A stretch of DNA of 64,000 nucleotides from Rhodocyclus gracilis (GCF_009617575.1 NZ_WIXJ01000007.1:1-64000), one strand, 5' to 3'. Counted from the stretch's first letter, positions 681-15,476 are shown. Notes: generated from the sequence alone by a model not told the origin. Made by a program: numbers and translations.

Positions 681-690
681 GCTAACGCAA

Positions 691-909: not shown

Positions 910-919
910 GCTCTATCTC

Positions 920-1111: not shown

Positions 1112-1117
1112 AGTAAT

Positions 1118-1173: not shown

Positions 1174-1247
1174 GCAAGTTCGACCTTGCGAAGACTGCCA
1201 TTCAGCATCGCACCCCGACACTGAATGTAACGCTGTTCCACACGATT

Positions 1248-1302: not shown

Positions 1303-1398
1303 ATACTTTTTTCAGACGAAACTCATGCCTCTTTTCGGGCATTGCCGGGGGGGCAAATCAACTGCCCAATCCCTTGATTTACGGGACTTCGAGCCAAA

Positions 1399-2331
1399 TC
1401 AGCGGGCACCGCGCCAGTCGAGAACCATCTTCAGGCAGGCGGCGTCGGTGAAGGCGGTGCGGTACGCCTGCTCAGCATCTGGCGCGGCGACGCGGTGCGT
1501 AATCAGGCCATCGAGCGAGAGCCGTCCGTCTTCGGCGTAAGCCTTGACGGCGGCAAGGTCCGGATCCTTGAACTCCGCCGCGATCCGCAGGCGGGCCTCG
1601 CGCATGAACGCCGGCGGAAAACTGAACGAGAGCGGCTTGTCGTAAAAACCTGCCAGCACCACCTCACCACCGCGCGCCAAGCGGCTAATCAAGGTATCGA
1701 GCAAAGTCGGATCGCCGCTGACGTCGCAGATCACGCGGTAGTCGCGCTTCTCATCCTGCGCCGGATCGATGACAGCGTAGCCCTGCGCGCCATCCATTCG
1801 TTGCGGGTTACGCTCCCACACCACCGGATGCCCGCCTTCCAACACCGCGAGCCGCGCCAACAGACGCCCCAGCACACCGTGCCCGACGATCAGGTCCGGC
1901 AATTCGCCGCCTGTCAGTGCGTGATACGCCGTCGCCGCCAGGGCCAACAGGACGCCCTGCTCTCCCAAGGATTCCGGAAAGGGAATGACGCGAGCACCGG
2001 CGACTACGACACGCCCCGCCGCACCACCAAACAGCCCCCGCACCTCCCCGTAACACTTGGCACCCGGCACGAACACATAGTCGCCAACGGCACGCCCTGA
2101 GCCTGCTCCCGCCGCCACGATGCGGCCGACCGACTCGTAGCCAGGAACCAGCGGATAGCCCAAACCGGGAAAGGGCGGCATGCGCCCGGTCCACAGGAGC
2201 TTCTCGGTGCCGATACTGATACCGCTGAAGTCGATCTCGACGACGATCTCCTCGTCGGTCGGCGGAGTCAGATCAAGGCGGCGCACGGTCAGTTGTTCGG
2301 GAGCTTCGAGTACGACAGCAAGGGTATCCAT
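1399..2331 (-). CDS. bchC: Bacteriochlorophyllide a dehydrogenase BchC
   Basis: Zinc-free medium-chain dehydrogenase-like enzyme (310 aa) that oxidises the C3 hydroxyethyl group to acetyl late in bacteriochlorophyll a synthesis. The GroES-like N-terminal part contains GISIGTEKLLWTGRMPPFPGLGYPLVPGYE, split here only for description (around residues 35-64), which is characteristic of BchC. The nucleotide-binding part has VGHGVLGRLLARLA. The start ATG at 2331 follows AGAGG. In many purple bacteria bchC leads bchXYZ-puf; here it is followed directly by antenna genes, and bchXYZ are not adjacent. A separate promoter probably lies in the 287-base gap before pucB. Confidence 0.9.
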   Translation of the reverse strand: MDTLAVVLEAPEQLTVRRLDLTPPTDEEIVVEIDFSGISIGTEKLLWTGRMPPFPGLGYPLVPGYESVGRIVAAGAGSGRAVGDYVFVPGAKCYGEVRGLFGGAAGRVVVAGARVIPFPESLGEQGVLLALAATAYHALTGGELPDLIVGHGVLGRLLARLAVLEGGHPVVWERNPQRMDGAQGYAVIDPAQDEKRDYRVICDVSGDPTLLDTLISRLARGGEVVLAGFYDKPLSFSFPPAFMREARLRIAAEFKDPDLAAVKAYAEDGRLSLDGLITHRVAAPDAEQAYRTAFTDAACLKMVLDWRGAR

Positions 2332-2555
2332 GGAGCCTCTTCTATTAGGTAAAGGAAACAGGGGCACATCGCGCCGAACACGACGCCGCCCAACAATCTT
2401 CACCGAGTCTACCGGGCACCCACCCCAAGTCAATCACGACCGACATCTTTCGCCTATAGAACATGGCACTACGCCCCCCCCAGAGCGAGCCGCTGCGCCT
2501 TGGCCGGTCTCGCGCGCGCGAACAGAGGCCAGCACTCACGCCACCTCGACGGCGA

Positions 2556-2585
2556 TTGACCCGGGCCACGCTCCCCCACTATAAT
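2556..2585 (+). promoter_or_regulatory. Sigma70-type promoter of the tRNA-Met gene
   Basis: TTGACC (2556-2561) and a perfect TATAAT (2580-2585) are separated by 18 bases and end 15 bases before the mature tRNA. They read away from the divergent bchC. Confidence 0.7.
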
Positions 2586-2600
2586 CTCGCGCCCTACACC

Positions 2601-2677
2601 GGTGATGTAGCTCAGTTGGTTAGAGCGATGGATTCATAACCCATAGGTCGGCAGTTCAATTCTGCCCATCACCACCA
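2601..2677 (+). tRNA. tRNA-Met (CAT anticodon, elongator type)
   Basis: Complete cloverleaf of 77 bases with encoded CCA. The acceptor stem GGTGATG pairs with CATCACC, the D-loop reads AGCTCAGTTGGTTAGAGC, the anticodon loop is TTCATAA, and the T-loop is GTTCAATTC. The shape and a perfect first base pair suggest elongator Met rather than initiator; tRNA-Ile2 (CAT) is a less likely reading. Its 3' end is the integration site of the mobile element. Confidence 0.93.
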
Positions 2678-2679
2678 AA
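2663..2679 (+). repeat. Left attachment site (attL) in tRNA 3' end
   Basis: TGCCCATCACCACCAAA spans the tRNA T-arm and acceptor end. The right-hand partner at 13454-13469 differs by one missing base. Tyrosine integrases of this family commonly use tRNA 3' ends, so this is the likely crossover region; the exact core cannot be fixed from sequence. Confidence 0.75.
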
Positions 2680-2702
2680 GAACAATTTAAAGCAGCTCAA
2701 AG

Positions 2703-2745
2703 AAGGCCGGACACACTAGAAAAAAACTAGTGATCCGGCCTTTTT
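2703..2745 (+). terminator. Terminator after tRNA-Met (element side)
   Basis: A stem formed by GGCCGGA (2705-2711) and TCCGGCC (2734-2740), with an inner CACTAG/CTAGTG stem and an A-rich loop, is followed by TTTTTG. It ends tRNA transcription inside the element. A second terminator just beyond attR (13478-13510) is probably the original host one. Confidence 0.8.
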
Positions 2746-2782
2746 GTTGTTCAAAGTTGTACGACGGCGTGTATTGAAATCC

Positions 2783-2849
2783 GGGGGCATGTGGGGGCAT
2801 GATCTGGGGCATCGCCCATATCGTTCAGATTGGATGCCCCCAATGCCCC
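2783..2849. repeat. GGGGCAT repeats, left end (arm-type sites?)
   Basis: GGGGGCAT occurs at 2783-2790 and 2793-2800, TGGGGCAT at 2805-2812, and inverted copies ATGCCCCC and AATGCCCC at 2834-2849, overlapping the integrase start. The same 9-mer TGGGGGCAT occurs twice just inside the right end. Placement at both ends and at the int start suggests integrase arm sites that could also autoregulate int. Confidence 0.55.
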
Positions 2850-4054
2850 TAACTGACACCGCAATCCGTAACGCGAAACCGGCCGAAAAGCCCGTCCGAA
2901 TGTTCGACGCTGGCGGCCTGTACCTTGAGATTTCGCCAGCTGGGGGCAAGCTCTGGCGCCTGAAATACCGGTTTGGGGGCAAGGAAAAGCGGCTCGCGCT
3001 GGGGGCATACCCTGAAGTTGGCCTCAAGGAAGCAAGGGGAAAGCGAGACGACGCCCGCAAGCTCTTGGCGGCCGACATTGATCCAGGCGAACACCGCAAG
3101 GCACAGAAGGAGGCCAAGCTGGAGAGGGCGTCCAATTCGTTCGAGATCGTCGCCCGTGAGTTCTTCTCCAAGAATAGGGCAACCTGGGCGGCGAGCCATC
3201 ACAACAAAATCATCCTGCGCTTCGAAAAAAACGTCTTTCCATGGATAGGCGACAGGCCGATAGCAGAAATATCCGCCCCCGAGATATTGACCATCCTCCG
3301 CCGGATTGAAAGCCGGGGCGCGGTCGAGACGGCACACAGAACGCGGGAAAATATTGGACAGGTGATGCGCTACGCCATTGCGACCGGCCGGGCAGAGCGC
3401 GACCCTGCCGCCGACCTTAAGGGGGCGCTAGCGCCGATCAAAAGGGAGCACTTCGCGAGCATCACCGATCCCGCCAAGGTGGGCGAGCTCTTGCGGGCAC
3501 TGGATGCCTTCCAGGGGACGTTCATCGTCAAGTCGGCTCTGTTGCTGGCGCCGCTGCTGTTTGTCCGACCTGGCGAGCTGCGAAAGGCCGAGTGGTCGGG
3601 CTTCGATCTGGGAAAGGCCGAATGGCACTATCTGGTGACAAAGACCAAGACGGAACAGGTCGTCCCCTTGTCGAGCCAGGCCGTGGACATTCTCAAGGAG
3701 CTGCAGCCGCTGACTGGTCATGGCCAGTACGTTTTTCCGGGCCGCGATCCGCAGAAACCCATGAGCGAGGCCGCGGTGAACGCTGCCCTGCGGCGCATGG
3801 GCTACGACACCAAGACCGAGATTACCGGGCACGGCTTCAGAGCCATGGCGCGGACCATCCTGCACGAGGAACTGCACCAGAAACCCGAAGTGATCGAGCA
3901 CCAGCTTGCGCACAAGGTGCCCGACGCTCTGGGCTCCGCCTATAACCGGACCAAGTTCCTGAAGGAGCGCCGAGCCATGATGCAGCTCTGGTCTGACTAC
4001 CTAGACAAGCTGAAGGCCGGCGCCGAAGTGATCAGATTGCACCCTGCAGCCTGA
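2843..4054 (+). CDS. Tyrosine recombinase (P4-type integrase)
   Basis: Site-specific integrase of 403 aa. The N-terminal MPLTDTAIRNAKP...DAGGLYLEI segment is the DUF4102 arm-binding domain of P4-like integrases. A central SAM-like core-binding domain is followed by the catalytic domain with the Arg in LFVRPGELRKAEW, the HGFRAMART box (H-x-x-R) and the nucleophile Tyr in GSAYNRTKF. The start at 2843 gives the usual N-terminus; ATG 2834 is an alternative three codons upstream. It lies 165 bases from the tRNA 3' end and points inward. GGGGCA repeats overlap its start, so the protein may bind its own promoter. Confidence 0.95.
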   Translation: MPLTDTAIRNAKPAEKPVRMFDAGGLYLEISPAGGKLWRLKYRFGGKEKRLALGAYPEVGLKEARGKRDDARKLLAADIDPGEHRKAQKEAKLERASNSFEIVAREFFSKNRATWAASHHNKIILRFEKNVFPWIGDRPIAEISAPEILTILRRIESRGAVETAHRTRENIGQVMRYAIATGRAERDPAADLKGALAPIKREHFASITDPAKVGELLRALDAFQGTFIVKSALLLAPLLFVRPGELRKAEWSGFDLGKAEWHYLVTKTKTEQVVPLSSQAVDILKELQPLTGHGQYVFPGRDPQKPMSEAAVNAALRRMGYDTKTEITGHGFRAMARTILHEELHQKPEVIEHQLAHKVPDALGSAYNRTKFLKERRAMMQLWSDYLDKLKAGAEVIRLHPAA

Positions 4055-4067
4055 CCGCTCCCTCGCG

Positions 4068-4258
4068 CTCCCTTTTTTATAGCCGAAAAAAATAAGGCGG
4101 CACCCGCCCAAAACCCTGCGCCCGTAGGCGTTTCGACGAATCGGCGGCTGGCTTATTTTCCCGGAAAGCTGTGCGTGAAGTGTGCCGGGCGCCGCCAAAA
4201 CCCGCTCCAGCGCATGGGAATCTCCCGCGAAACTCCTTTTTTATAGTCGGGAAAAATA
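4068..4258 (+). repeat. Imperfect direct repeat downstream of int
   Basis: CTCCCTTTTTTATAGCCG plus an A-run (4068-4094) recurs as CTCCTTTTTTATAGTCGG plus an A-run (4233-4258), 165 bases apart. Function unknown. The T-run/A-run content suggests promoter-like or recombination-derived DNA rather than coding sequence. Confidence 0.45.
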
Positions 4259-4454
4259 CCCGGAACTGCGAAAGGAGGGGCTGAATCGCCCGCGGGAACT
4301 GCTTCACAGCCCCGAGAACCATCGGCCCTATCGAGCGCCCGTGATCTACGAGTGCGACCTCGACGCCGACGGGAAGACTGTCCTTGATGTTTGCGTCCGC
4401 GAAGGGCGGCAATCTCGAGGTCGCGAAGCCTCGTTGAGAACGTTCAAGGCCTAG
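4182..4454 (+). CDS. Hypothetical small protein (doubtful)
   Basis: A possible 90-aa product from GTG 4182. The middle part (KYPELRKEGLNRPRELL and then VIYECDLDADGKTVLDVCV) has a protein-like composition, but no ribosome binding site is seen and the upstream part overlaps the direct repeat. I do not recognise it. It may be a remnant; if it is not real, 4055-4502 is non-coding. Confidence 0.3.
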   Translation: MPGAAKTRSSAWESPAKLLFYSREKYPELRKEGLNRPRELLHSPENHRPYRAPVIYECDLDADGKTVLDVCVREGRQSRGREASLRTFKA

Positions 4455-4502
4455 CGCTGTCGGAGACTTGAGCAGGACGAAAGATGGCTGCAAAATTGGC
4501 CC

Positions 4503-4555
4503 TGTGGATAACTTTGGCTGGCGTCAAATTGTAACTATCTGAAATCTGTGGATAA
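4503..4555. other. Two perfect DnaA boxes, possible element origin
   Basis: TGTGGATAA, the exact complement of the DnaA box TTATCCACA, occurs at 4503-4511 and 4547-4555 in the same orientation, in locally AT-rich DNA. The element encodes its own helicase and initiator-like protein, so an origin of replication here is possible. Two boxes alone are weak evidence. Confidence 0.4.
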
Positions 4556-4600
4556 GTCGCTTTTTTGTGGGCGGCTTATTTCCTATACTTCGTCCCAACA

Positions 4601-4626
4601 AAAAGCCGCCCATGGAGCGGCTTTTG
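4601..4626 (+). terminator. Possible terminator hairpin
   Basis: AAAAGCCGC (4601-4609) and GCGGCTTTT (4617-4625) form a 9-bp stem with a 7-base loop. Only four T follow in the stem itself, so termination is uncertain. The ribosome binding site of the next gene begins soon after. Confidence 0.45.
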
Positions 4627-4642
4627 TCACGAGGAGAGATTC

Positions 4643-4831
4643 ATGAAATCTCGTCAAGCTAGATCAGTGTTCAGCGAATTCCTGCGCGGCATCGGGAGTT
4701 CTCTTGAGGTCGCGCCGCGCGCTTCCTACATCAGGCCGACGGGCGGCTTCAAACGTGATGCCAAAGCGCTGAATGGCGACGTCCGCCAGGTCGGCAACAG
4801 CATGCGCCGCGCCTTGGCTTCTCATGGGTAG
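4643..4831 (+). CDS. Small basic hypothetical protein
   Basis: A 62-aa protein rich in Arg, Ser and Ala (MKSRQARSVFSEFLRG at the start). The ATG at 4643 follows GAGGAGAG with good spacing, and its end overlaps the next start, as expected for coupled translation with the DUF2335 gene. No family recognised. An upstream in-frame start at 4565 would cross the hairpin at 4601-4626 and is less likely. Confidence 0.6.
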   Translation: MKSRQARSVFSEFLRGIGSSLEVAPRASYIRPTGGFKRDAKALNGDVRQVGNSMRRALASHG

Positions 4832-5201
4832 TCGTCAGACGGCAGGACGGCTCAAACGAGGCGACGGCGAGCTGACATTTCAGCAGCAAGAAACCGACAG
4901 CCCGATTTTGCCGGTTCCACACCTGGAGCGGCTGCACGCATTTCGCCCTGACGCGGTCGACCTGGTTCTCGAGCAGACCAAGATTGAGGCAGAGCACCGC
5001 CGAGCCCAGAACGCAAGAATCAACGGCTACATCTTCATGGAGCGCATCGTTGGGCAGATTTTTGGCCTGGTGATCGGCGCGGGAGGCATTGCCGGCGGCG
5101 TGTACGCTGCGGTTAACGGTCAGCCATGGGCGGGCGCAACGATTGCCTCCGCAGCAATTGGCGGCTTGGCAGTGGCTTTTGTTGTAGGACGCAAGAAGTA
5201 G
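4824..5201 (+). CDS. DUF2335 family membrane protein
   Basis: A 125-aa predicted inner-membrane protein. An N-terminal soluble part with LERLHAFRPDAVDLVLEQ and a charged helix IEAEHRRAQNARI precedes the motif ERIVGQIFGLVIGAGGIAGG. Two hydrophobic segments follow (about residues 70-90 and 97-117) and a basic VVGRKK end. This layout is that of DUF2335, found in prophages and other mobile elements, of unknown function. The ATG overlaps the stop of the preceding small gene. A terminator follows at 5228. Confidence 0.75.
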   Translation: MGSRQTAGRLKRGDGELTFQQQETDSPILPVPHLERLHAFRPDAVDLVLEQTKIEAEHRRAQNARINGYIFMERIVGQIFGLVIGAGGIAGGVYAAVNGQPWAGATIASAAIGGLAVAFVVGRKK

Positions 5202-5227
5202 CAACCAACTGACAGTACGGTCAGCAC

Positions 5228-5251
5228 AAACCGCCTTCGGGCGGTTTTTTT
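5228..5251 (+). terminator. Intrinsic terminator after DUF2335 gene
   Basis: AAACCGCC (5228-5235), loop TTCG, GGCGGTTT (5240-5247), then a T-run to 5251. A strong hairpin with UUCG loop closes the plus-strand unit and faces the end of the minus-strand operon. Confidence 0.85.
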
Positions 5252-5301
5252 CGCCCGAAGGTTGCGCGTCCTCGGCCTTCCGCTGGTGTTCGGCTTCTCC
5301 C

Positions 5302-5655
5302 TCAAAAAAGCAGTGCTACCCCGTTCTTTCTGGCCATTGCCCCCCACTGCTCAGCAGTCATGGAGAGTATCCGGATGACGAACTCCATAGGGTTCTCGCC
5401 GGCGGCCGGCCGCTCTCCAAGGAGGTCCATGGTTGCCTTCTGGAATCCTTCGGTGAGGCGTTGGTACTCGGTGGTCATGAAGTCGAAGGCGGTCACCGAA
5501 GCAGCGACCGCGCCGTCGAGGTTCCCAGCCTCCACGTTGTGTTGCGTGATGGCCAGGGTGTTCTCGCCGAGGGCCGCGTACTTCGGCGCCAGTGCGACGA
5601 GTTCGGAGGCGATCTGCTGGAATGCCTCGAAGTGCTGAAGCGTTGCTGTCCGCAT
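5302..5655 (-). CDS. Hypothetical phasin-like helical protein
   Basis: A 117-aa, mostly helical protein, last gene of the element's minus-strand operon, 5 bases after the tape-measure-like gene. The start at 5655 has a clear GGGAGGT. The segment FEAFQQIASELVALAPKYAA followed by amphipathic helices recalls phasins or small tail-associated chaperones, but there is no diagnostic motif. Its position after a tape-measure gene favours a partner of that protein. Function unknown. Confidence 0.65.
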   Translation of the reverse strand: MRTATLQHFEAFQQIASELVALAPKYAALGENTLAITQHNVEAGNLDGAVAASVTAFDFMTTEYQRLTEGFQKATMDLLGERPAAGENPMEFVIRILSMTAEQWGAMARKNGVALLF

Positions 5656-5660
5656 GCCTG

Positions 5661-7493
5661 TTACCTCCCGGATGCGCCGACCGGCGTCAGTGACATGCGG
5701 CCGTCCGGACGAGAGGTGCCGGCCATGGGGCGGCGCAGGTCTTTGTCCATTTCCTGGGTCACCACCGAGTAGAGAACTCGCCCGTCAGGCATGACGATCG
5801 TGTTGTTGATCATCTTCGGCTGTTGCTGTGCCTTGCTCCGCACATAGTTGGAGCTTGGCGCTTGTTGGAAATGCAGCGATTCGTCCTGTCCGTACTTGAA
5901 CCATCCGGTCGATTTTCCAAGCCACGTCTGATCCAGATAGGAACGCAGCGAACCGTGAGCACCACCTGAGCTTTTTTGGACGCTTTGGTCGATCTTGTCC
6001 CCGACGACGTCGCCAATCTTCCAGCCGGCGTAGAGCGACATGAAGGCGGCAGCCTGCAAGCCGACCGACTTCAGGCCGCCAGCGACGCTTTTCAGGTTTG
6101 CGCCGAGGCCGCCACTCGCTCCCAAGACGAGGCCAAGAGACTTGAAGGCGGTTTTGGTGAGCAAGATCGTGCCACTGATGGCCATTGCTGCGCCCAGACC
6201 GACGAAGCCATAGGTCAGCCCCTTTACAAGGAGAGGGAAGCGCTGAAGCGTCTCGAAGAACTTGCTCAAGTCCTTGATTAGCGGGGTCAGCACGGGCAGC
6301 ACGGTTTTCCCAACAACGAGGCCGAGGTCATCCATTGCGGCGTGGAATTTCTCGATAGCCATCATCGGGCTTTTGGCGTTGTCCCGGTTCGTCTGGGCTA
6401 TTCCGCGCGCCTTGTCGTAAGCAAGCAATGACTCCTCGATGACAGGCATTTGCTGCATGAGCTTGTTGTAAATCTTCGCGCCAGTGGTGTTGAAGAGGAG
6501 CGCGTTTGTCCGCTCTCGGTCTAGCTGGCTGGCAATGCCGTGCGTCTTGTAAATCTCCATCAGCTGCTTGGTGAATTCCACCGTATCGGACTGCATCAGG
6601 CGCAACAGCCCGTCCGTCATGCGCACCTGGCCGTGATCGATCTTGCCGATGCCAAGCTCGGCGAGCGTGCTCTGCATCTTCTTCGGTGGCAACGCCATGC
6701 CACCGCTCATGCGTGTAAAGGCGGTTCGCAGCCCGGTGGCGACCGTGCTTCCGCCAAATTCGCCGATGATCGGTTCGAGGCCGCCAAAGATCGCGCGCAT
6801 CGAAAGAGAGTTGGTGGCGCTGCTACCGTAGGCGACGAACTGCTTGAGTTGGCGTTCATCGACCATCTTGCCGCTGGATTGCACTGCCTTGAAAACGCCG
6901 TCGGCAATCTCTTCCGCTCGCTTTGGATGGCCAATACCGCCCATGATTTCCACGGTTTTGTTGAGGTTTCGCATCGCCATCTCGTGCATCGCCATATGCG
7001 GGCCACCAAGCAGCTTCATGGCCGTTTCGTATTGCGCCATGACCGGCATCATTGTTTTGGCTGCCTCCAGCGCTCGCTCCCCGTCCATGCCGCTTTCACG
7101 GAAGGAGCCCTGTGCTTCGGCAAACAGACGCATGCGCTGCTGCATCGAAGTGCCGATGATGGTATTGGCCTGAACGAATTTTTGGGCGTCGCGAATCTGG
7201 GCCTCGCCGATGCCCATTTGGCGCAACTTGGCCGCTTCGCGCTCCCACTGCACGGCCTGGTCAAACGGACCTTTGAAGCCCATCAAAATGCCGGCTCCGG
7301 CGCCAGTCATCGCTCCACCAATCAACAGGGATCGCTTGATTTGTGCCAGCCGGATCTCCATCGTCATGAGACCGGCGTTTGCCTTGTCGATGTGCTTTTG
7401 GGTCGACATCAGGCCCATCGATATGGCCGTCAGCCCGCTGCTCACGTTGTTGATGAGCGAAAGCCGGATGGCGACCTTGTAGGCTTCAAACAT
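5661..7493 (-). CDS. Phage tail tape-measure-like protein
   Basis: A 610-aa protein with the layout of tail length tape measure proteins. It has an N-terminal helical part with a hydrophobic glycine-rich stretch (GGAMTGAGAGILMGF, about residues 58-72). The middle is long and helical. The segment with FHAAMDDLGLVVGKTVLPVL (about 383-402) is typical of TP901-type tape measures, and Gly-rich hydrophobic segments follow (about 425-485). It starts at ATG 7493 behind GGAGGG. At about 1.5 angstrom per residue such a protein would set a tail near 90 nm. No tube, tail-assembly chaperone or baseplate genes accompany it, which is unusual. A membrane-active element protein is the alternative. Confidence 0.7.
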   Translation of the reverse strand: MFEAYKVAIRLSLINNVSSGLTAISMGLMSTQKHIDKANAGLMTMEIRLAQIKRSLLIGGAMTGAGAGILMGFKGPFDQAVQWEREAAKLRQMGIGEAQIRDAQKFVQANTIIGTSMQQRMRLFAEAQGSFRESGMDGERALEAAKTMMPVMAQYETAMKLLGGPHMAMHEMAMRNLNKTVEIMGGIGHPKRAEEIADGVFKAVQSSGKMVDERQLKQFVAYGSSATNSLSMRAIFGGLEPIIGEFGGSTVATGLRTAFTRMSGGMALPPKKMQSTLAELGIGKIDHGQVRMTDGLLRLMQSDTVEFTKQLMEIYKTHGIASQLDRERTNALLFNTTGAKIYNKLMQQMPVIEESLLAYDKARGIAQTNRDNAKSPMMAIEKFHAAMDDLGLVVGKTVLPVLTPLIKDLSKFFETLQRFPLLVKGLTYGFVGLGAAMAISGTILLTKTAFKSLGLVLGASGGLGANLKSVAGGLKSVGLQAAAFMSLYAGWKIGDVVGDKIDQSVQKSSGGAHGSLRSYLDQTWLGKSTGWFKYGQDESLHFQQAPSSNYVRSKAQQQPKMINNTIVMPDGRVLYSVVTQEMDKDLRRPMAGTSRPDGRMSLTPVGASGR

Positions 7494-7730
7494 GGTCGTT
7501 TGCCCTCCTGAAACAGGGATGTGTTGGTTGGCCGCTTGGCGGCCGCATTGAACATAGGGCCACGGCTTGCGCCGTGGCCCTACGCCGCTTTATTTCGACG
7601 TGGGTGGGGCGTGAGGTTGTCCGGGGCGATTTCAGGCGCTTGTGGCGCGAACGCTCGTTTCTGCCCATGCCCTACCTACGTGCGATTGGCTGAGCCGGGG
7701 GCGACCCCGGCTTCCGGTTGAAATTGACCA

Positions 7731-8054
7731 TCAGATCAAGAAGGAGGACCGCCCGATGCCGGAAAGGCGCCGCCGTGCTTCTTCGTAATCCGCGTCCGAC
7801 ATTTCCTTTGCAGACTTCTTGAAGAGATCGGGGCGACGGCGGCGCAGCTCCTCGACAACCTCGCGGGCGTTCGTGACTTCGCCGCGACCGTCGATCTTGA
7901 CCAGGCTGGCGTCGATCGCGGTCAGCGATGCCGTGTCGATGATGCCGGCCGCAACGGCGGCAGCTGCGATCAGTCGGGGGATGTCGCCGCGGGCGCTGGC
8001 CGCCTCGTTGTCCTCGATGTACTGGCGCTTGAGGGCGGCGGACTCGGTGCTCAT
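7731..8054 (-). CDS. Hypothetical element protein
   Basis: A 107-aa protein, acidic to neutral and helical, with VVEELRRRRPDLF and DADYEEARRRLSG near its end. The start at 8054 has GGAGG and overlaps the stop of the preceding gene. No family recognised. A 237-base gap (7494-7730) without a convincing gene separates it from the tape-measure-like gene. Confidence 0.65.
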   Translation of the reverse strand: MSTESAALKRQYIEDNEAASARGDIPRLIAAAAVAAGIIDTASLTAIDASLVKIDGRGEVTNAREVVEELRRRRPDLFKKSAKEMSDADYEEARRRLSGIGRSSFLI

Positions 8055-8560
8055 ACTGCACCTCCTTGTGCGGCGCCGGTCTCGGTGACGGAGAGCATTT
8101 CCGCCAGTGTCGGAGCCGGCATCAGGGGGAAGGCGTTCTTGGCTGCGGTGACGAAGCGCTGGGCCGCAGACTTCAACTCCGGCGTGAGAAGGGCCTGGAA
8201 CGCAGCGCGAGCGGCTTCCAGCTCGTTCGTGTTGGCCGTGCCGACAGCGGATGCATCGCGATGAATGAGGGGGTGTAGTTCGTGGTGATTGCCACTAAAG
8301 ACGAGAGCCAGCTCCAGATCGATCTCCCGAATCTCTGCTTTGGCGGCGCGGATTTCCTCCGAAAGCTGGCCAGCTCTCCGCGTCGCGTAGTGGGCGCCAT
8401 CGCGATCCTGCATGCTGCCGCGCTCGTTTGCTTCGCGCTTGGCAGCGATAACGCCATGTTCCTTCTCGGCGACGGCCTGTTCCAACTCGCCACGGCGCTT
8501 TGCCAAGCGTTTTTGCAGCTCGTCGCGCTTCTCGAAAAAGCTCTGACGGTATTCGTTCAT
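8051..8560 (-). CDS. Hypothetical coiled-coil protein
   Basis: A 169-aa protein whose first half (residues 1-80) is a charged coiled coil (KRDELQKRLAKRRGELEQAV). The second half is compact and Ala-rich. The ATG at 8560 is 8 bases after AAGGAG; GTG 8569 is less likely. The sequence pattern resembles small phage assembly or head-tail connector proteins but no diagnostic motif is seen. It is probably translated with the genes on both sides. Confidence 0.65.
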   Translation of the reverse strand: MNEYRQSFFEKRDELQKRLAKRRGELEQAVAEKEHGVIAAKREANERGSMQDRDGAHYATRRAGQLSEEIRAAKAEIREIDLELALVFSGNHHELHPLIHRDASAVGTANTNELEAARAAFQALLTPELKSAAQRFVTAAKNAFPLMPAPTLAEMLSVTETGAAQGGAV

Positions 8561-8621
8561 AGGTACCACTCCTTCATCAAAAAGCCCGGGCGGTTGCTCC
8601 GGGCCGGGTTATGAGGGGCGC

Positions 8622-9224
8622 TCACGCTTTCCCCTCGAAAAGAAAAGGTTTTGCTGCTCGGAGCCGCTCGATCGCGGCGTCTATGCCGCAGAGGTTGCCG
8701 GCCTCATCCAGCGTGACGCCCGCCAAGTCGAGGAAAACCGCCCAATCAGGATCAATCGCGCCGGCGGCGATCAGGGCAACCTTCGCCTCTGCCTGGATGA
8801 CGCGTCGGGTCATTGCGTCGACCTGACTTTCTGCTGCAATCGACGCGAGGCGGCGCTTCTGGCACTCACGGCGCAGCAGTCGCAGCTTTGCCAGCAGCGA
8901 TCGAGTCCCGGGCAGTTCGGCACCGTCGTCCTGATCGGCCGGAGCGGCGACACGGCGCAACTGCCAAAGGAGGCCGAGGGCGTCGGCCGCGTGCGTGATC
9001 TGCAGGGCCTTCACGGCCTCCAGGGCGCCTTCTTCGGCAGACATGCCGAGGGCGGCGTAGCAGTAGGGCGGAACTTCGTCCAAGCGCACCGCCTTCACCT
9101 GTTTGCCGGCCTTGACTCGCTTTTCCTCGGATGTTTTCCGCTCGACCATCGCGGCGTGCGAGGCCGTTGCCGCACGGCGCCCCTTCTCGCTCGTGTTGCG
9201 CTCTGCCAATGTGCTGACCTTCAT
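8622..9224 (-). CDS. Hypothetical phage-type protein
   Basis: A 200-aa protein. The basic N-terminus (residues 1-50) is followed by a helical middle and the ending AAIERLRAAKPFLFEGKA. The pattern 'x-LRxxKPFLF' at the C-terminus recurs in phage scaffold-like proteins, which makes a structural or DNA-associated role thinkable. Its ATG overlaps the dnaB stop (ATGA), so it is translated with the helicase. No family firmly recognised. Confidence 0.65.
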   Translation of the reverse strand: MKVSTLAERNTSEKGRRAATASHAAMVERKTSEEKRVKAGKQVKAVRLDEVPPYCYAALGMSAEEGALEAVKALQITHAADALGLLWQLRRVAAPADQDDGAELPGTRSLLAKLRLLRRECQKRRLASIAAESQVDAMTRRVIQAEAKVALIAAGAIDPDWAVFLDLAGVTLDEAGNLCGIDAAIERLRAAKPFLFEGKA

Positions 9225-10627
9225 TCGTCAAACCCCCTTCGCTGGAATCGTGGTTTCTGGGCTTCCGATGCCCGCGCCGCGGCCTCGGCAAATTCGCGCC
9301 GGTCGGCATCGCAGAAGCGGGAGAACTCACCCTGGAACACCAGCGGAATCTCGCCGAGCGGCCCAAGGCGCTGCTTGCGGATCAGGATTTCCGCGTAGCC
9401 CTTCAGGTGGGTTTGCGGGTTGTAGTAGTCGTCGCGGTAGCACATCAGCACCACGTCGGCGTCCTGCTCGATGCTTCCGGAGTCGCGCAGGTCGGACATG
9501 ACCGGGCGCTTGTTCGGGCGCTCCTCAACCTTTCGCGAGAGCTGCGAGAGAAGGACTATCGGGCAGGAAATTTCGCGGGCCAGGAGCTTCAGGGCGCGCG
9601 TGATTCCGCCCAGCTCCTCGTTCTTCGTGTTGCCATCGCCACGCATCAGCTGCAGGTAGTCGATGACGATCAGATCGAGGCTGTCGAAGCGCTGGCGAAC
9701 CTTGCGGGCGGCGAGGCGGACCCGGGAAACGTGCGAGAGATACGGGTCGTCGGAGATGACGAGCCGCTTTTCGTAGAGCTTGGCCAGTGATGCCGAGATT
9801 CGGTTGTAGTCCTCATCATCGATCTGGCCGGAGCGCAGTGCCGTCGTGCTGATGCTGCCGAAGCGGGCCATGGAGCGCTCGGCGAGCTGGTCGGCGCCCA
9901 TCTCCAGGGACGCTACGAAAGCGGTCCCGCCCGCCATCGCCACGTTCTCGGCGATATTCACGGCCATCGTGGTTTTGCCCATGCTCGGGCGCCCGGCGAC
10001 GATGACCAGATCCCCGGGGTGCAGCCCGTTGGTCAGCTTGTCGAGGTCGCGGAAGCCGGTCGGCAGACCTGAAATCTGGCCACCCTTCTCAGCACGCTGG
10101 TCAAGCGCATCAAGGACGCCGGGGAGCAACTCCGATATCGTTTTCGGCTCCTTGCCTGCGTGCTTCGTGTCGGCGAGGCCCATCACCAGGCCGGTGACTT
10201 GCTCCAGCAACTCGGCGGTCGTGCTGCCGGCGCTCTCCGCAAGCTCGGCGACTTGGCGCCCCATGGCCAGCACATCGCGCCGGACGCGACGCTCCCGCAC
10301 GATTTCGGCGTAGCGGCGGATATTGGCGGCGCTGGGCGTGTTGGCCGCCAGATCGCCGAGGTACGCGAGACCTCCGGTCTGTTCGCCCTGGCCGGCTCGC
10401 TCAAGCGCCTCGGCGACGGTGACTGCGTCGACCGGCTTGCCGTTCTCGAGAAGCATGCTGATCTGGCGCCAGATACGGCGGTGTTCGTCGCGGTAGAAAT
10501 CGCCCTCGGAGAGCAGGTCGGCGATGCGATCCCATGCCGAGTTGTCGAGCAGCAGCCCGCCGAGCACCGACTGCTCGGCATCGATCGAATGCGGAGGCAG
10601 GCGAAGTTGTTTGGCAGGGGCGTTCAT
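9221..10627 (-). CDS. Replicative DNA helicase DnaB (element-encoded)
   Basis: Hexameric 5'-3' helicase, 468 aa, full length for DnaB. The N-terminal domain starts with PHSIDAEQSVLGGLLLD (residues 11-27). The RecA-like C-terminal domain has Walker A GRPSMGKTT (about 208-216), Walker B LIVIDYLQL and the SDLRDSGSIEQDAD motif. It overlaps the initiator-like gene by four bases (ATGA) and is followed by an overlapping gene. This initiator-helicase order matches lambdoid or P22-like replication modules, so the element can probably replicate after excision. It is a second dnaB in addition to the expected chromosomal one. Confidence 0.95.
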   Translation of the reverse strand: MNAPAKQLRLPPHSIDAEQSVLGGLLLDNSAWDRIADLLSEGDFYRDEHRRIWRQISMLLENGKPVDAVTVAEALERAGQGEQTGGLAYLGDLAANTPSAANIRRYAEIVRERRVRRDVLAMGRQVAELAESAGSTTAELLEQVTGLVMGLADTKHAGKEPKTISELLPGVLDALDQRAEKGGQISGLPTGFRDLDKLTNGLHPGDLVIVAGRPSMGKTTMAVNIAENVAMAGGTAFVASLEMGADQLAERSMARFGSISTTALRSGQIDDEDYNRISASLAKLYEKRLVISDDPYLSHVSRVRLAARKVRQRFDSLDLIVIDYLQLMRGDGNTKNEELGGITRALKLLAREISCPIVLLSQLSRKVEERPNKRPVMSDLRDSGSIEQDADVVLMCYRDDYYNPQTHLKGYAEILIRKQRLGPLGEIPLVFQGEFSRFCDADRREFAEAAARASEAQKPRFQRRGFDE

Positions 10628-11376
10628 GCTGCGGCCCTCCGCGCTTGCTCGCCGGCCGTGGTCCAGCGGGCCGGCTCTCCTTCCTTGAGATACCAGAGGC
10701 TGGCGCGGTTCTGGCGGACAGCATTACGGAACGTGCCCGGCCAGTCCCTTTTCCGGTTCTGGGTCGGCAGCCAGTAGCTCTTGAACTCGCGCCACGCGAT
10801 GGCCAGCATTTCGGATTCGATGCCGACTTTCTCCGCGTAATCGAAAATCGGGTCGTCGTCAGGTATCGGCTTCATGCCTCTTGCCTGGCATTGCTCGATG
10901 AAGCACTTCAGAGTGATGCCTGCCGTTCTCGCTTTCGAGTCTGCCGACTGATCGGGCAGCGCTTGCGCGCCCCCTTTGACGGGTATTGGCGGTTCAATGA
11001 CGGTTCGGCTCCCATGGGCGGGAGGGGTGGGCTCCCGTCGGCGGGAGGGGGAAGGGACACTGGCGGGAGGGCTCCCGTCGGCGGGAGGGGTGACACTGGC
11101 GGGAGGGGTCAGACGGTCGAGGGCGATTTGGTACCGGCGACTCGTGGCGCCGCCCGCCGCGTTCGCGGTCACCTTCAGGTAGCCGGCTTCCTCCAGTGCG
11201 TGAACAACTCGCCGGGCCTGCTTCTCGCTCAGCCGGATTTTTGTGGCGATCGAGGCCATGGACGGCCAGCAGCGGCCCTCGTCGTCGGACCAGTCAGCCA
11301 GGGCGAGCATGGTCAACAGATCGGACCCGCCCCCCGGAAAACCGCCCCAGACCATGGACCACACGCGGACGGCCAT
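10624..11376 (-). CDS. Phage replication initiator-like protein (O-type)
   Basis: A 250-aa protein. The N-terminal winged helix (about residues 15-90) contains the phrase CWPSMASIATKIRLSEKQARRVV, typical of phage replication protein O and helix-turn-helix_36 proteins. It is followed by a Pro/Ser-rich linker (about 90-130) and a C-terminal domain with IFDYAEKVGI and WYLKEGEP. Like lambda O, it sits directly before a helicase gene and its middle part is made of short tandem DNA repeats (11017-11108). The role as origin-binding helicase loader is inferred from domain order and context. Confidence 0.8.
   Translation of the reverse strand: MAVRVWSMVWGGFPGGGSDLLTMLALADWSDDEGRCWPSMASIATKIRLSEKQARRVVHALEEAGYLKVTANAAGGATSRRYQIALDRLTPPASVTPPADGSPPASVPSPSRRREPTPPAHGSRTVIEPPIPVKGGAQALPDQSADSKARTAGITLKCFIEQCQARGMKPIPDDDPIFDYAEKVGIESEMLAIAWREFKSYWLPTQNRKRDWPGTFRNAVRQNRASLWYLKEGEPARWTTAGEQARRAAA
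11017..11108. repeat. Iteron-like repeats inside the initiator gene
   Basis: GGCGGGAGGG occurs five times, starting at 11017, 11040, 11062, 11080 and 11098. A 20-base unit at 11031-11050 is repeated exactly at 11071-11090 and includes the inverted repeat CTCCCG/CGGGAG. A 16-base unit at 11056-11071 is repeated at 11092-11107. The A-B-A-B arrangement within the O-like gene resembles the lambda origin, which also lies inside O. Confidence 0.65.
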
Positions 11377-11377
11377 C

Positions 11378-11527
11378 TCACTGCTCCTTCAGTGCCCGCA
11401 GAAGCGCGGCCAAGAAAGCGCGGATCAGCTTCTGCTTGTCAGGGGCGCGACACGTGGGGATGGCTGCCGCCAGCCGGTGGGCGCGAGGCCACAGGGGGCC
11501 GGTGCGCCGATTGCGATGCGTGCGCAT
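11378..11527 (-). CDS. Small basic ORF between alpA and initiator gene
   Basis: A 49-aa reading frame (ATG 11527, stop 11378) fills the gap between the AlpA gene and the initiator gene. The product is Arg-rich with a helical end (LIRAFLAALLRALKEQ). The stop is one base before the initiator start region, giving tight coupling. No ribosome binding site stands out, and a TTG at 11539 is an alternative start. Uncertain. Confidence 0.4.
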   Translation of the reverse strand: MRTHRNRRTGPLWPRAHRLAAAIPTCRAPDKQKLIRAFLAALLRALKEQ

Positions 11528-11539
11528 GGGACCGCCCAA

Positions 11540-11740
11540 CTAGCCTTTGGCGATCAAAGCGCGGATGTCGTCGACCTTCCATGCGGTAGTACGGGGACCG
11601 AGCTTTACCGGCTTCGGAAAGCGCCCCGTCTTTACCCCGTTCCACCAAGTAGTGCTGCAGACAGGAATCACGGAAAGGACCTGGCGCAGTCGGCAATAGC
11701 CTTCGCTTGGTAGGCTTTGTTTCTGTGTGTTGGTTGTCAT
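11540..11740 (-). CDS. AlpA-family transcriptional regulator
   Basis: A 66-aa helix-turn-helix protein of the AlpA/MerR-like excisionase group: YCRLRQVLSVIPVCSTTWWNGVKTGRFP, listed here as residues 15-42, then KPVKLGPRTTAW and VDDIRALI. This recognition-helix-plus-wing pattern is diagnostic. AlpA proteins control integrase or replication genes in P4-like elements and PICIs. The ATG at 11740 gives the normal length. It is the first gene of the minus-strand replication operon, next to the divergent control region 11741-12441. Confidence 0.85.
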   Translation of the reverse strand: MTTNTQKQSLPSEGYCRLRQVLSVIPVCSTTWWNGVKTGRFPKPVKLGPRTTAWKVDDIRALIAKG

Positions 11741-11955
11741 TTGTGGCCCTCGCTGAACGAATACGAATAACTGCGAGCGAAGGCTAAAACGCACCAAGAA
11801 ATCATTCAACACAATGATTTTCTGCGTTTTTTTCCAATTTCATCCGCTGACATCCAAGGCGGTCCGCCGAAGTGTTGCGAATATTTTTTCATTGGAAATC
11901 GATTTGCAATAGTCTCTAGCTATAATCTCCGCATCTCATGGCCTGAAATGCTGCG

Positions 11956-12096
11956 ATGGCGCTTATTGGATGTAAGCGGCATATCGCCGGCATGCCTTTG
12001 ATTCGATTGCATGTCGATTTGTTGGGACATGATCGTTATCCGGCTGCTTATCCTGAATTGCGCGCTGCTCGCCGCATGACCTTCCGATTGCCATAA
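11956..12096 (+). CDS. Possible 46-aa leader ORF in control region
   Basis: An ATG-to-TAA frame (MALIGCKRHIAGMPLIRLHV at the start) lies about 30 bases downstream of a TATAAT at 11921-11926 and upstream of a terminator-like hairpin at 12188-12213. No clear ribosome binding site. It may be a leader peptide or chance. The rest of 11741-12187 holds no other feature I can support. Confidence 0.3.
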   Translation: MALIGCKRHIAGMPLIRLHVDLLGHDRYPAAYPELRAARRMTFRLP

Positions 12097-12187
12097 GAGA
12101 TTGACCGCGAGGAAGTCACGCTAGATACTTGGCCCGTAGCTGAGACAACAGCGAACGGGCTTGGCGGCCCGAATTACATCGGCGGAC

Positions 12188-12213
12188 AACCGCCGCAAGT
12201 GCGGTTTTTTTTT
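12188..12213 (+). terminator. Terminator/attenuator in element control region
   Basis: AACCGC (12188-12193) and GCGGTT (12201-12206) flank a 7-base loop and are followed by a run of T to 12212. It lies inside the leader of the plus-strand operon, so transcription would have to read through for the regulators to be expressed, as in P4-type immunity. Confidence 0.6.
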
Positions 12214-12274
12214 CGTCCGTTGCATGGCCTCGTCTATGGGCGGGCCGTGCGGGAGGGCTTCGGCCCTGCCGGTT

Positions 12275-12364
12275 CCGATGTACCGGTCCGCCAACCTGTA
12301 CGGTCTGCCCACCCCCTCTTGGCGGAGGGGCGGCAGGAAAACAGCCGCTTACATCGGAGTCACC
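12275..12364 (+). promoter_or_regulatory. Structured leader hiding a ribosome binding site
   Basis: CCGATGTA (12275-12282) is complementary to TACATCGG (12350-12357). The latter includes the first bases of the GGAG (12356-12359) before the ATG at 12365. An inner hairpin CTGCC-N-CCCC with GGGG-C-GGCAG lies between. The arrangement would block translation when folded. It resembles the short antisense-type C4/CI immunity RNAs of P1 and P4, an idea that rests on layout only. Confidence 0.5.
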
Positions 12365-12445
12365 ATGCAGAAAATCACCACGCCGCCCGGAGCGGCAACC
12401 CGGCAGCAACTTCACTCGACCTCCAGAACGGGGGGCGAACAATGA
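12365..12445 (+). CDS. Short leader peptide ORF
   Basis: A 26-aa frame (MQKITTPPGAATRQQL at the start) begins 5 bases after GGAG and ends by overlapping the next ATG (ATGA at 12442-12445). This supports translational coupling to the following gene. Its own product may be unimportant. Confidence 0.45.
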   Translation: MQKITTPPGAATRQQLHSTSRTGGEQ

Positions 12446-12747
12446 GCACCGGCAAAATCATCGCTACCTTGTGGGAAGCCTGCCAGGACACGCTGACGGA
12501 CGAGCAGCTGAGTTCCTTGAGTTGCGGCGAGGAGATTGTCGCGAATCTTTCGGCGCTGTCTCAGATCATGGATGGCTTGGCTACGCTCGTGGCAAATGAT
12601 GAGGACACCGGGAGATTCCGCAGCAGCCCAGAGGTTGCCGACATGCTTTGGGGGTTTTCCTGGGCCGTCAGTGCCGCCGCCCAAGCCGCCCGCGTGGCCA
12701 ACGAAGCCAGCGCCATCAAAAAACTGAGGGCAGCCGGGGAGTTGTGA
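12442..12747 (+). CDS. Hypothetical acidic element protein
   Basis: A 101-aa acidic, helical protein (EACQDTLTDEQLSSLSCGEE near the start, AAAQAARVANEASAIKKL near the end). The start overlaps the leader ORF stop. It resembles the small DUF3077-like proteins found at this place in other prophages in length and setting, but I cannot confirm the family. A terminator follows at 12779. Confidence 0.6.
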   Translation: MSTGKIIATLWEACQDTLTDEQLSSLSCGEEIVANLSALSQIMDGLATLVANDEDTGRFRSSPEVADMLWGFSWAVSAAAQAARVANEASAIKKLRAAGEL

Positions 12748-12778
12748 TGCCTTCAGCTTGCCTGCCATTCCGCGCCCC

Positions 12779-12802
12779 CCCCGGCCACGCGCCGGGGTTT
12801 TT
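12779..12802 (+). terminator. Intrinsic terminator
   Basis: CCCCGGC (12779-12785), loop CACGC, GCCGGGG (12791-12797), then TTTTT. It lies between the acidic protein and the AlpA-domain protein, so the latter depends on read-through or its own promoter. Confidence 0.8.
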
Positions 12803-12818
12803 GTTCGACGAGGTAGAA

Positions 12819-13394
12819 ATGGAGCAAACCCAGCCCTTCAATCAGGCGGCCTTGCTCGATGTCGCTTTTCAGGCTGTCCGCATTTACGCCGAGACGCATC
12901 CGCGTCCGCTGCACGTCACGCTTGAGCAGGCCGCCGAAATGCTCGGGATCACCGTGGAGTCGTTGATGAAGATGATGAGCAGCAAGAAACTCCGGATCAA
13001 CGAGTGCGGCCTGATACCGATTGGCGACATTGATCGAGCACTAGCGTCGCGCGCCAGTCGACCGGGCGTCGAGCTGCAGAAGGCCGCAGCGAAGAAGGCC
13101 AGCCCTGTCCGCGAGGGAGGAAAAACAGGACTGGATCGCCCCCGCAGCCATTCGCCGGAGCACGTTGTGATTCGTTTGGCGCAGGTCGAGGAATCGGTCG
13201 GCCTGAAGAAGTCGGCCATCTACAAGATGATCAAGACCCAAGAGTTCCCGGCGCCGATCAAACTGGGCAAGCATGCTTCCGACTGGCTGGAGTCATCGGT
13301 GCAGACCTGGATCAGGAATAAGGCCGAGCGAGATCCGGCGTTTCTCGAAACTAGGGGTGACACCAGCAGAATGGGGGCATTTTTGGGGGCATAA
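12819..13394 (+). CDS. Two-domain HTH/AlpA regulator
   Basis: A 191-aa DNA-binding protein. The N-terminal half (about residues 25-70) has a helix-turn-helix with LEQAAEMLGITVESLMKMM. A basic linker follows (about 80-115). The C-terminal AlpA domain (about 118-170) has IRLAQVEESVGLKKSAIYKM, PAPIKLGKHASDW and VQTWI. The ATG at 12819 follows GAGG. Its last codons contain two TGGGGGCAT copies, so the gene runs into the right end of the element. It probably serves as excision or integrase regulator; this is inferred from family and place. Confidence 0.8.
   Translation: MEQTQPFNQAALLDVAFQAVRIYAETHPRPLHVTLEQAAEMLGITVESLMKMMSSKKLRINECGLIPIGDIDRALASRASRPGVELQKAAAKKASPVREGGKTGLDRPRSHSPEHVVIRLAQVEESVGLKKSAIYKMIKTQEFPAPIKLGKHASDWLESSVQTWIRNKAERDPAFLETRGDTSRMGAFLGA
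13372..13392. repeat. TGGGGGCAT repeats, right end (arm-type sites?)
   Basis: Two copies, 13372-13380 and 13384-13392, in the same orientation, 60-80 bases inside the right attachment site. They match the repeats at 2783-2849 next to the left end. They overlap the last codons of the regulator gene. Confidence 0.55.
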
Positions 13395-13453
13395 TCGAAA
13401 ACAACATCTGCCCAAAGCTTGCCAATTGGTAGATTTCTGGCGTTGTTTGGTTG

Positions 13454-13469
13454 TGCCCATCCCACCAAA
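13454..13469 (+). repeat. Right attachment site (attR)
   Basis: TGCCCATCCCACCAAA matches the tRNA 3' end copy at 2663-2679 except for one missing base. It is followed within 10 bases by a strong terminator that probably belonged to the tRNA before integration. Confidence 0.7.
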
Positions 13470-13477
13470 ATTCAAGT

Positions 13478-13510
13478 AAAAAGCCCAGCCTCCGCGCTGG
13501 GCTTTTTACT
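13478..13510 (+). terminator. Terminator, probably the original tRNA-Met one
   Basis: AAAAAGCCCAGC (13478-13489), loop CTCCGC, GCTGGGCTTTTT (13496-13507): a perfect 12-bp stem. No gene directly upstream on the host side needs it, which fits displacement by the element. Confidence 0.85.
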
Positions 13511-13998
13511 TTTCAGACGCCGACACGCTGCCAGGCCACGCCAACTGTGCCGACGAGCGACCGCCGATCCGATTACTTCGCGGGGCGCACTCAGAAGCAC
13601 CGCCGAGCCGCGTTGCGCCGCCGTTGCGCCAACCAGTGTCCGTCATCGCTCTCGCCAGATACCGCCCCTCGACGCACAGCCCCTCCACAGATCCCGTTTC
13701 AGCTCGCGGATTGGCAAGGGCGGCGCGCGTAGTCCGCAGTACTCACTCAACCACGGGCGAGGCAGCGACAATGCCCCTTGATCACCCCCCCGTACCGTGA
13801 CGTTTTCGCTAGACTCATTGCGCCAATATGCAGCGGCCTGAGCGGCGACCCTCTCGACGGGTCGAGCGCCGAGTTACCTCCACTAGAGGCACACTCGGTA
13901 CTGACGACGCTCTTTATGCAGCAGAATCCCTTACGGAACATCAGGCTGAGCGACCAAGCCAACAGCTGCCGCGAACGCCCTCTGACGCCGAGAGAAAT
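13511..13998. other. Intergenic stretch, no gene seen
   Basis: About 490 bases between the right end of the element and the glycosyltransferase-like gene. Frames through it are short and lack ribosome binding sites. It presumably holds the promoter of the downstream gene; no motif stands out. Confidence 0.4.
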
Positions 13999-15456
13999 AT
14001 GTCCGACCAACTGATCCACGCTAACGACACGGTCAATCTCGTACTCATCCAGCCGGAGGGGTACGCGCATAGTGGCGCATTGGCAGAACTGGTGGAAACG
14101 CTCATCTACGGTTTGTACGAAGCGGGCGTTGCGCATCACTTCTCGTTTAATGAATTAAACCCGCTGTGCACCAATATCGTTATTGGTGCACATTTGCTGG
14201 ACGAAAAAAGTCTGCACGACCTGCCGGCCGAGACGATCATTTACAACTCCGAGCAGATCGACGAAAAATCCACCTGGATAAATAGCGACTATCTCGGAGT
14301 TTTACGGCGGTGCCGCGTCTGGGATTACAGCGACGCCAATATCGAAAAACTCCGGTCACTCAGCGTTAGCCGCATTCAACTCCTCCCCGTCGGTTACGTG
14401 CCGCAACTTACCCGAATCCCCAGGCTCGCTCACCAGGATATCGACGTACTTTTCTATGGCGCCATTAATGAACGGCGAAAAAATATCCTCGAAGCCCTGA
14501 TTTCGCGAGGCTTACGCATCGAGTTCCTGTCGGGCGTCTATCGTGAAGAGCGTGACCACTACATCGCCCGGGCGAAGCTGGTAATCAACTTGCACTATTA
14601 CGGCGCCGCCGTCTTTGAAACTGTTCGTGTTTCCTATCTGCTTGCCAACGAAGTCGCCGTCGTCGCCGAACTCGATGATTCCACCAAAATCGATCCCGAT
14701 CTGCGCGAAGCTGTGTGTGGCGTCCCGTACGAACGGCTCGCGGACGCCTGCGTCGAACTGATTAATGACACGGAAAAACGCGCCGCCCTCGCTCGTCGCG
14801 GATTTGAACTATTCTCCCGACACAAAGAAACTGCAATCCTTCGACGCGCACTGGGAATGAGCGATGAGATACCGCCGCATTACATCCCAAAAACCCTCAA
14901 CCTGAGCAACGAAAAAAACTGGCGCGACGACTGCCTGAATCTCGACCCCACTAAAACCGGCACCCCGGACGCGCTGTTCGATATTACACGACCGCTCGAT
15001 GAAATCTCGCTGCTCGACAGCGCACGTTTCGGCCCGATTTTTCTCAAGGAAAACACGTTTGACGCCATCATTGCCGATGATGTTTTCGGCAACATCCCCG
15101 ACCTCGTCACGACGATAGGCAACTGCCTGTATTTACTCAAGGCGGGCGGCTATTTCCATATTCACGTCCGTCACGAGCTTTCGCAGGCCGCCGAGCAATC
15201 AGCGGCAACGCACGCCTTCAATGAGCACAGCTGGCGTGCGCTCACCGACGAGCATTGGCACTATGCATGGACGCAAGCGCGCTTCGAGCAAGTCGCCCTT
15301 GATTTTCACTTGAGCGAATCCGGGCAGACGCTGCACACGGTAGGCCGACCTCTCGCCGAGATTCTGCGTACGCCGCGCGCCGTCGACGGCATGAGCGTAA
15401 CCCTGCGTAAGCGCTATCTTCTCGAGTCGGAGATGGCGCAAACCGCTGCGGCATAA
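13999..15456 (+). CDS. Glycosyltransferase-like protein with MTase-like C-terminus
   Basis: A 485-aa protein. The N-terminal half (about residues 10-290) resembles GT-B glycosyltransferases of the CgeB/family-1 type: IIYNSEQIDEKSTW, the interdomain part QLLPVGYVPQLTRI, DVLFYGAINERRK and LVINLHYYGAAVFETVRVSYLL, which corresponds to the sugar-nucleotide side. The last third (about 300-470) has DAIIADDVFGNIPDLVTTIGN and LKAGGYFHIHV, reminiscent of a methyltransferase fold without a clear SAM motif. The ATG at 13999 follows GAGAG. It is somewhat richer in A/T than its neighbours, so recent transfer is possible. Substrate unknown. Confidence 0.65.
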   Translation: MSDQLIHANDTVNLVLIQPEGYAHSGALAELVETLIYGLYEAGVAHHFSFNELNPLCTNIVIGAHLLDEKSLHDLPAETIIYNSEQIDEKSTWINSDYLGVLRRCRVWDYSDANIEKLRSLSVSRIQLLPVGYVPQLTRIPRLAHQDIDVLFYGAINERRKNILEALISRGLRIEFLSGVYREERDHYIARAKLVINLHYYGAAVFETVRVSYLLANEVAVVAELDDSTKIDPDLREAVCGVPYERLADACVELINDTEKRAALARRGFELFSRHKETAILRRALGMSDEIPPHYIPKTLNLSNEKNWRDDCLNLDPTKTGTPDALFDITRPLDEISLLDSARFGPIFLKENTFDAIIADDVFGNIPDLVTTIGNCLYLLKAGGYFHIHVRHELSQAAEQSAATHAFNEHSWRALTDEHWHYAWTQARFEQVALDFHLSESGQTLHTVGRPLAEILRTPRAVDGMSVTLRKRYLLESEMAQTAAA

Positions 15457-15476
15457 ACGCCAGCCCACCGCCTGCC

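Follow-up and report, generated by a model that had tools for sequence, protein, structure and literature searches.

Satellites that take over the tail of their helper phage have been described in Vibrio, where the phage-inducible chromosomal island-like elements (PLEs) encode a tape-measure protein (TMP) and a hub protein, and by inference a chaperone, that replace those of the helper in the tail; loss of tmp lowers transduction by 96-99.9% (PMC12987554). In 2026 the authors called the PLEs the first such satellite family, and noted that putative tmp genes are carried by PLE-like elements and by capsid-forming phage-inducible chromosomal islands (cf-PICIs) (PMC12987554). At the other end of the particle, CpmB of the Staphylococcus aureus pathogenicity islands (SaPIs) is similar to the helper scaffold, with which it competes, leading to small heads, and Rcm has been proposed to act likewise (PMC12409344). 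Here we describe an element of 10.8 kb integrated in a tRNA-Met gene of Rhodocyclus gracilis, at positions 2663-13469 of a stretch of 64,000 nucleotides (NZ_WIXJ01000007.1:1-64000; "the window" refers to this whole stretch, counted from its first letter). It is probably a replication-competent satellite of a helper resembling the phages of loci L015 and L016, and would rebuild both ends of the particle, giving a small head and a chimeric tail.

The PLEs of Vibrio cholerae remodel the head and the tail of a contractile-tailed helper (PMC12987554), and the same is proposed for the window element from its genes alone; like the PLEs, it encodes a TMP of its own. The PLE set of TMP, TAC and BhuB is matched by the additional genes of two sister elements, namely a chaperone in L003 and a gpD-type hub in L073. 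The tac gene that lies beside tmp in the PLEs is present in L003, but absent from the window. The PLEs also differ in genus, in replication, for which the window element has O and DnaB, and in control, for which it has AlpA proteins and a C4 RNA, and the PLE head protein TcaP (PMC10945586) contrasts with the internal-scaffold mimicry suggested by the head genes of the window element. The cf-PICIs share a putative tmp gene (PMC12987554, Extended Data Fig. 10), but have capsid and packaging genes of their own, none of which was recognised here. The P4-like satellites (PMC8628076) have in common with the window element a P4-type integrase, AlpA, a C4-type RNA, a size of about 11 kb and a tRNA site. 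However, an O-like initiator and DnaB are found instead of the alpha primase(-helicase), these two and the TMP are carried unlike in P4-like satellites, and psu, sid and delta had no Pfam or PHROGs match in the window open reading frames (ORFs) scanned, where remote forms could be missed. Lacking tac and the alpha primase, the element was assigned neither to the PLEs nor to the P4-like satellites. TMP carriage suggests a resemblance to the PLEs, as known from their published description, in a presumably unrelated lineage. No report of this satellite lineage was found in the literature searched, which largely left preprints and subscription papers outside. A first-pass annotation of this DNA had stated that P4-like elements and PICIs do not as a rule encode a tape measure, which is fair, although one has since been reported for PLEs and some cf-PICIs (PMC12987554).

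Tape-measure gene and its phage relatives

The tape-measure gene (5661-7493, minus strand) encodes 610 aa matching PHROG 28 (2e-15), as the first-pass annotation had proposed, and has full-length relatives in phages and satellites. Most of the close relatives lie in one cassette, composed of genes for sheath, tube, chaperone, neck protein, TMP, a 320-aa protein, gpD, gpV, gpW and gpJ, which belongs to phages with a P22-type capsid and a DUF4055 portal. In the window element, terminase, portal, capsid, sheath, tube and baseplate had no Pfam or PHROGs profile match in the 12 ORFs scanned; the earlier annotation had been right about such missing structural genes, but had overlooked the scaffold-derived genes p200 and p107 described below. 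The element was classed as a satellite on the combination of mobility, indicated by attachment (att) sites, an integrase and an empty site in congeners, with no recognised capsid, portal or terminase gene.

In the TMP tree, the window protein shares a group with the proteins of L003 (100/99) and L002 (89/88), and phages L015 and L016 are sister to that group (set of five, 96/99). The entries labelled as satellites require at least seven changes, so tail genes have probably been captured repeatedly by satellites; in this count the long branches L073 and L074 are placed uncertainly, and some satellite labels rest on contigs that could be fragments.

The TMPs of satellites (596-911 aa) match in length those of phages from the same clade (587-784 aa, median 633), and the 610 aa of the window TMP compare with 630 and 644 aa in its nearest phages, L015 and L016. 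Simple tail shortening is therefore unlikely, and the idea, raised in the first-pass annotation, that the element redirects the tail length of a helper was not sustained in its simple form. TMP length generally sets tail length, and PLE11 tails are ~10 nm shorter than those of ICP1 (PMC12987554), but with satellite and phage TMPs covering the same lengths it is improbable that the satellite protein chiefly serves to set a different one. Because it is not shorter than those of the phages, the gain to the satellite likely lies in the identity of the TMP. Between the window and L073, 29 of the 43 aligned positions in the first 50 residues are identical, as are 29 of 50 in residues 551-600, while most of the middle is only ~20-30% identical; for its middle, the L073 TMP has its nearest relatives, at 24-26%, in other phage groups (L014, L067 and L059). 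This pattern fits ends that are bound to meet helper parts and a middle that is free to change, with evasion of helper-directed tail blocks or altered DNA entry as candidate reasons for the exchange. The ratio of nonsynonymous to synonymous substitution rates (dN/dS) of the TMP gene against L003 was 0.19 (dS 1.0), and other pairs ranged from 0.16 to 0.45, with dS often near saturation, values indicative of purifying selection on the genes of the element.

Downstream of the TMP gene lies p117 (5302-5655, minus strand), the small partner that the earlier annotation had pointed out. It is conserved behind TMP in L002 (25%) and behind TMP-gpD in L073 (42%), and weakly behind TMP in L031 and L032, which contain gpD, TMP and a p117-like gene. 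No relative was found in phage records. The p117 model is confident (predicted local distance difference test, pLDDT, 92.8) and matches nothing beyond common helical bundles; no function was assigned from the fold.

Scaffold-derived genes

Three further genes, p107 (7731-8054), p172 (8051-8569) and p200 (8622-9224), are found next to the TMP gene on the same strand; p172 lies between the other two, and all three are kept in L073. The p200 protein matches PF06810 (3e-9) and aligns with phage scaffolds (hhalign probability 99.1, E 8.7e-19) over the conserved YVxELREE coiled coil and the core, stopping just past the KPxLF motif, without the C-terminal tail. The p107 protein is 62% identical to its L073 homologue; its alignment with phage scaffolds (probability 96.8, E 2.9e-10) takes in the core and C-terminal MTxEEYxAA tail, and the coiled coil is missing. 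From these alignments, p200 and p107 are identified as complementary pieces of one phage scaffold protein, the matching gene of which sits between the portal and coat genes in L005, L007, L015, L017 and other loci. SaPI CpmB and Rcm (PMC12409344) are likewise scaffold-like satellite proteins, but in the window element the scaffold is present as two complementary proteins, with a putative redirector function. Only the C-terminal half of p200 is scaffold-like; its extra N-terminal half (8900-9224, ~100 residues) is kept in L073, absent from L003 and without a family match. With p200 alone as the query, no match was obtained among viral contigs.

The coiled-coil protein p172 was found in the window, L073, L003 and L002, and is limited to these satellites among the loci examined, being absent from the phage loci; as a query against viral contigs, its only match was L003. 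With an hhalign probability of 3.4, it was rejected as a further piece of the scaffold, and its fold had no significant match in BFVD.

The incomplete state of p107 and p200, together with the existence of anti-TMP interference in the form of Rta in PLE11 (PMC12987554), would agree with the satellite TMP and scaffold pieces being mainly decoys, and not components of a satellite particle, that poison the assembly of helper heads and tails and thereby protect the host. This is unlikely, as the integrase, O, DnaB and att sites indicate a mobile replicating element, the conserved TMP is full length, and the chaperone, neck or hub genes that accompany it in the sister elements are more in keeping with assembly than with poisoning. 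The window TMP stands without other tail genes, as could be expected if a TMP-like protein had been co-opted for a role at the membrane or in injection outside the virion, but it is adjoined by the scaffold pieces, and in the sisters by chaperone, neck or hub genes, all of them virion-assembly parts, which makes such reuse very improbable.

Sister elements, insertion site and gene content

L073 is a 13.1 kb element in a genome of the host's family, with 16-bp att repeats at tRNA-Ser. Its gene order (int, HigB-like toxin, AlpA, O, DnaB, p200, p172, p107, TMP, gpD and p117) is that of the window apart from gpD and the toxin. L002, an 11.7 kb element in a Comamonadaceae metagenome-assembled genome, also has 16-bp att repeats at tRNA-Ser, and its order (int, AlpA, O, DnaB, p172, small genes, TMP, p117 and p246) is largely that of the window. 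L003 is a 5.9 kb fragment with a primase-helicase, p200, p172, a small gene, chaperone, neck protein and TMP. Small plasmids of Polaromonas (7.2 and 11.2 kb), without TMP annotation, were found to carry relatives of L002 p246 (12145-12885).

A worn-down prophage that chanced to keep replication genes, scaffold remnants and a TMP is suggested by the origin of the TMP and scaffold pieces in complete phages of one clade. Such a remnant should show broken or idiosyncratically kept genes, but the ORFs are intact, the order is common to L073 and L002, and dN/dS is well below 1. Moreover, L073 has the same reduced gene set in the same order, as for the most part does L002, both at a tRNA and att site of their own, and p172 is restricted to these elements. 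That other genomes contain intact elements in synteny, each with att sites of its own, combined with the signature of purifying selection, indicates that the window element is not a decayed prophage, an origin that is quite improbable here; the satellite interpretation of the first-pass annotation is thus upheld.

The integration target is the tRNA-Met gene (2601-2677, plus strand; ARAGORN and Rfam). Its 3' end forms attL, TGCCCATCACCACCAAA (2663-2679), which is repeated as attR, TGCCCATCCCACCAAA (13454-13469), one base shorter. In two congeners, G451 and G499, the bchC-side flank and tRNA-Met are as in the window, but a terminator hairpin comes directly next, without the element; a hairpin of the same kind lies right of attR at 13474-13511, with lead-in bases nearly as in G451. 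The empty site and this hairpin show that the insertion is real and its boundaries correct, which confirms the att-like ends in tRNA-Met reported earlier. The left flank (76-2433) contains, as judged by eye, two copies of light-harvesting polypeptide-like genes and then a bchC-like dehydrogenase gene, so photosynthesis genes adjoin the element.

The P4-type integrase, AlpA regulators, initiator and DnaB of the first-pass annotation were all recovered by Pfam and PHROGs. The tyrosine integrase (2744-4054, plus strand, likely start 2834) contains Arm-DNA-bind_3 (PF13356), Phage_int_M (PF22022) and Phage_integrase (PF00589) and matches PHROG 1. Replication genes encode a DnaB helicase (9221-10627, minus strand; Pfam DnaB and DnaB_C; 49% to L073) and a lambda-O-like initiator (10624-11376, minus strand; PHROG 391, 3e-18). 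A repeat search found direct repeats within the O gene (10995-11110 in the window) in both the window element and L073. The replication origin of lambdoid phages is located inside O, and these repeats suggest a candidate origin. There are two AlpA-type regulators (11540-11812, minus strand, PF05930, 7.5e-6; 12819-13394, plus strand, PF05930, 1e-12). The control region is now seen to hold a C4 antisense RNA (12232-12316, plus strand), which at 73.3 bits clearly exceeds the Rfam threshold of 45 for RF01695. An isrK-like RNA (12136-12211, plus strand) falls slightly short, at 48.4 of the 50 bits required for RF01394. A 101-aa protein (12442-12747, plus strand) had no match in family searches, and a 142-aa membrane protein (4773-5201, plus strand) belongs to the phage moron family PHROG 3996 ("membrane protein", 3e-21), for which a host-surface or exclusion function is possible. 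Known defence families gave only weak matches.

Helper type, proposed cycle and other lone tail modules

The TMP, chaperone and gpD genes derive from a clade of phages with a P22-type capsid and a DUF4055 portal, of the L015/L016 type. The L003 chaperone is 70-72% identical to those of L016 and L015, and the L073 gpD is 58% identical to that of L015 and 55% to that of L016. Together with the TMPs of the window, L003 and L002, these genes point to a contractile-tailed phage of this clade as the likely helper. Sheath, tube and baseplate genes are present in the L015 and L016 loci, and L015 additionally contains portal, scaffold and coat genes.

In the proposed cycle, the integrase and AlpA proteins would excise the element under C4-RNA control, and O and DnaB would replicate it, probably from the repeats within the O gene. 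By homology with scaffolds, p200 and p107 may act as competitors of the helper scaffold and shift assembly towards a small head, much like SaPI CpmB. The identity of the TMP and its lone context suggest that it could replace the helper TMP, giving chimeric tails as in the Vibrio PLEs, and p117 might assist TMP folding or choice. The TMP ends would fit helper parts, while the exchangeable middle could evade blocks on the helper TMP or change DNA entry.

Several points weigh against a satellite that rebuilds both particle ends. The att repeat is imperfect, with a one-base indel between attL and attR; a tail chaperone, present in PLEs, is absent from the window; no scaffold piece was detected by profile in L002; and neither the host genome nor 387 genomes of the family yielded a helper phage, in searches without a positive control. 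A DUF4055 portal was not found in the host genome either, a weak negative without a positive control. The search for a helper there turned up only a Mu-like prophage remnant near C20:16-20 kb (L064 16020-20000 and L065 1-482), which has terminase genes and is of another phage type than the proposed helper.

Lone tail modules were also found in other backgrounds. L074 is chromosomal, with an integrase 58% identical to that of the window, an int-alpA RNA and a TMP of 673 aa; an attachment repeat was searched for there and not found. L079 and L035 combine a P4-type primase, AlpA and C4 with a TMP-neck-chaperone set, and the L035 TMP gene had no DNA-level relative in E. coli genomes. L079 (IMGVR_UViG_2791355396_000002, 1-19348), a satellite-like contig, has the C4 and isrK RNA pair as in the window, and no capsid genes were seen. 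L043 (IMGVR_UViG_2928503688_000003, 1-15076) encodes DnaB, a weak scaffold-like ORF, tail fibre, TMP, gpD and a serine recombinase, with neither capsid nor sheath seen on the contig. The plasmid-like contig L024 (IMGVR_UViG_3300050132_000420) has a TMP of 704 aa (6201-8315), a serine recombinase and a RepB-like initiator (judged by eye), and no further tail gene was recognised. IMG/VR contigs may be fragments, so the absence of capsid genes from them is weaker evidence.

A wider view, in which a satellite lineage unrelated to the PLEs remodels helper head and tail through a scaffold split in two proteins and a TMP with fixed helper-contacting ends and a cassette-swapped middle, and in which such tail-gene piracy evolved on many occasions in proteobacterial satellites and in plasmid-like elements, is tentative, and we would put it somewhat below an even chance. 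The window element and its sisters suggest that the chimeric-tail strategy of the PLEs, beyond which there were only hints before, also exists in an unrelated betaproteobacterial lineage, and with the split scaffold there may be a second way in which heads are remodelled. These elements differ in their choice of tail genes, which may be the TMP alone, the TMP with a chaperone and a neck protein, or the TMP with a hub protein. With TMP length unchanged and its middle exchanged, the question of why satellites carry a TMP becomes testable.

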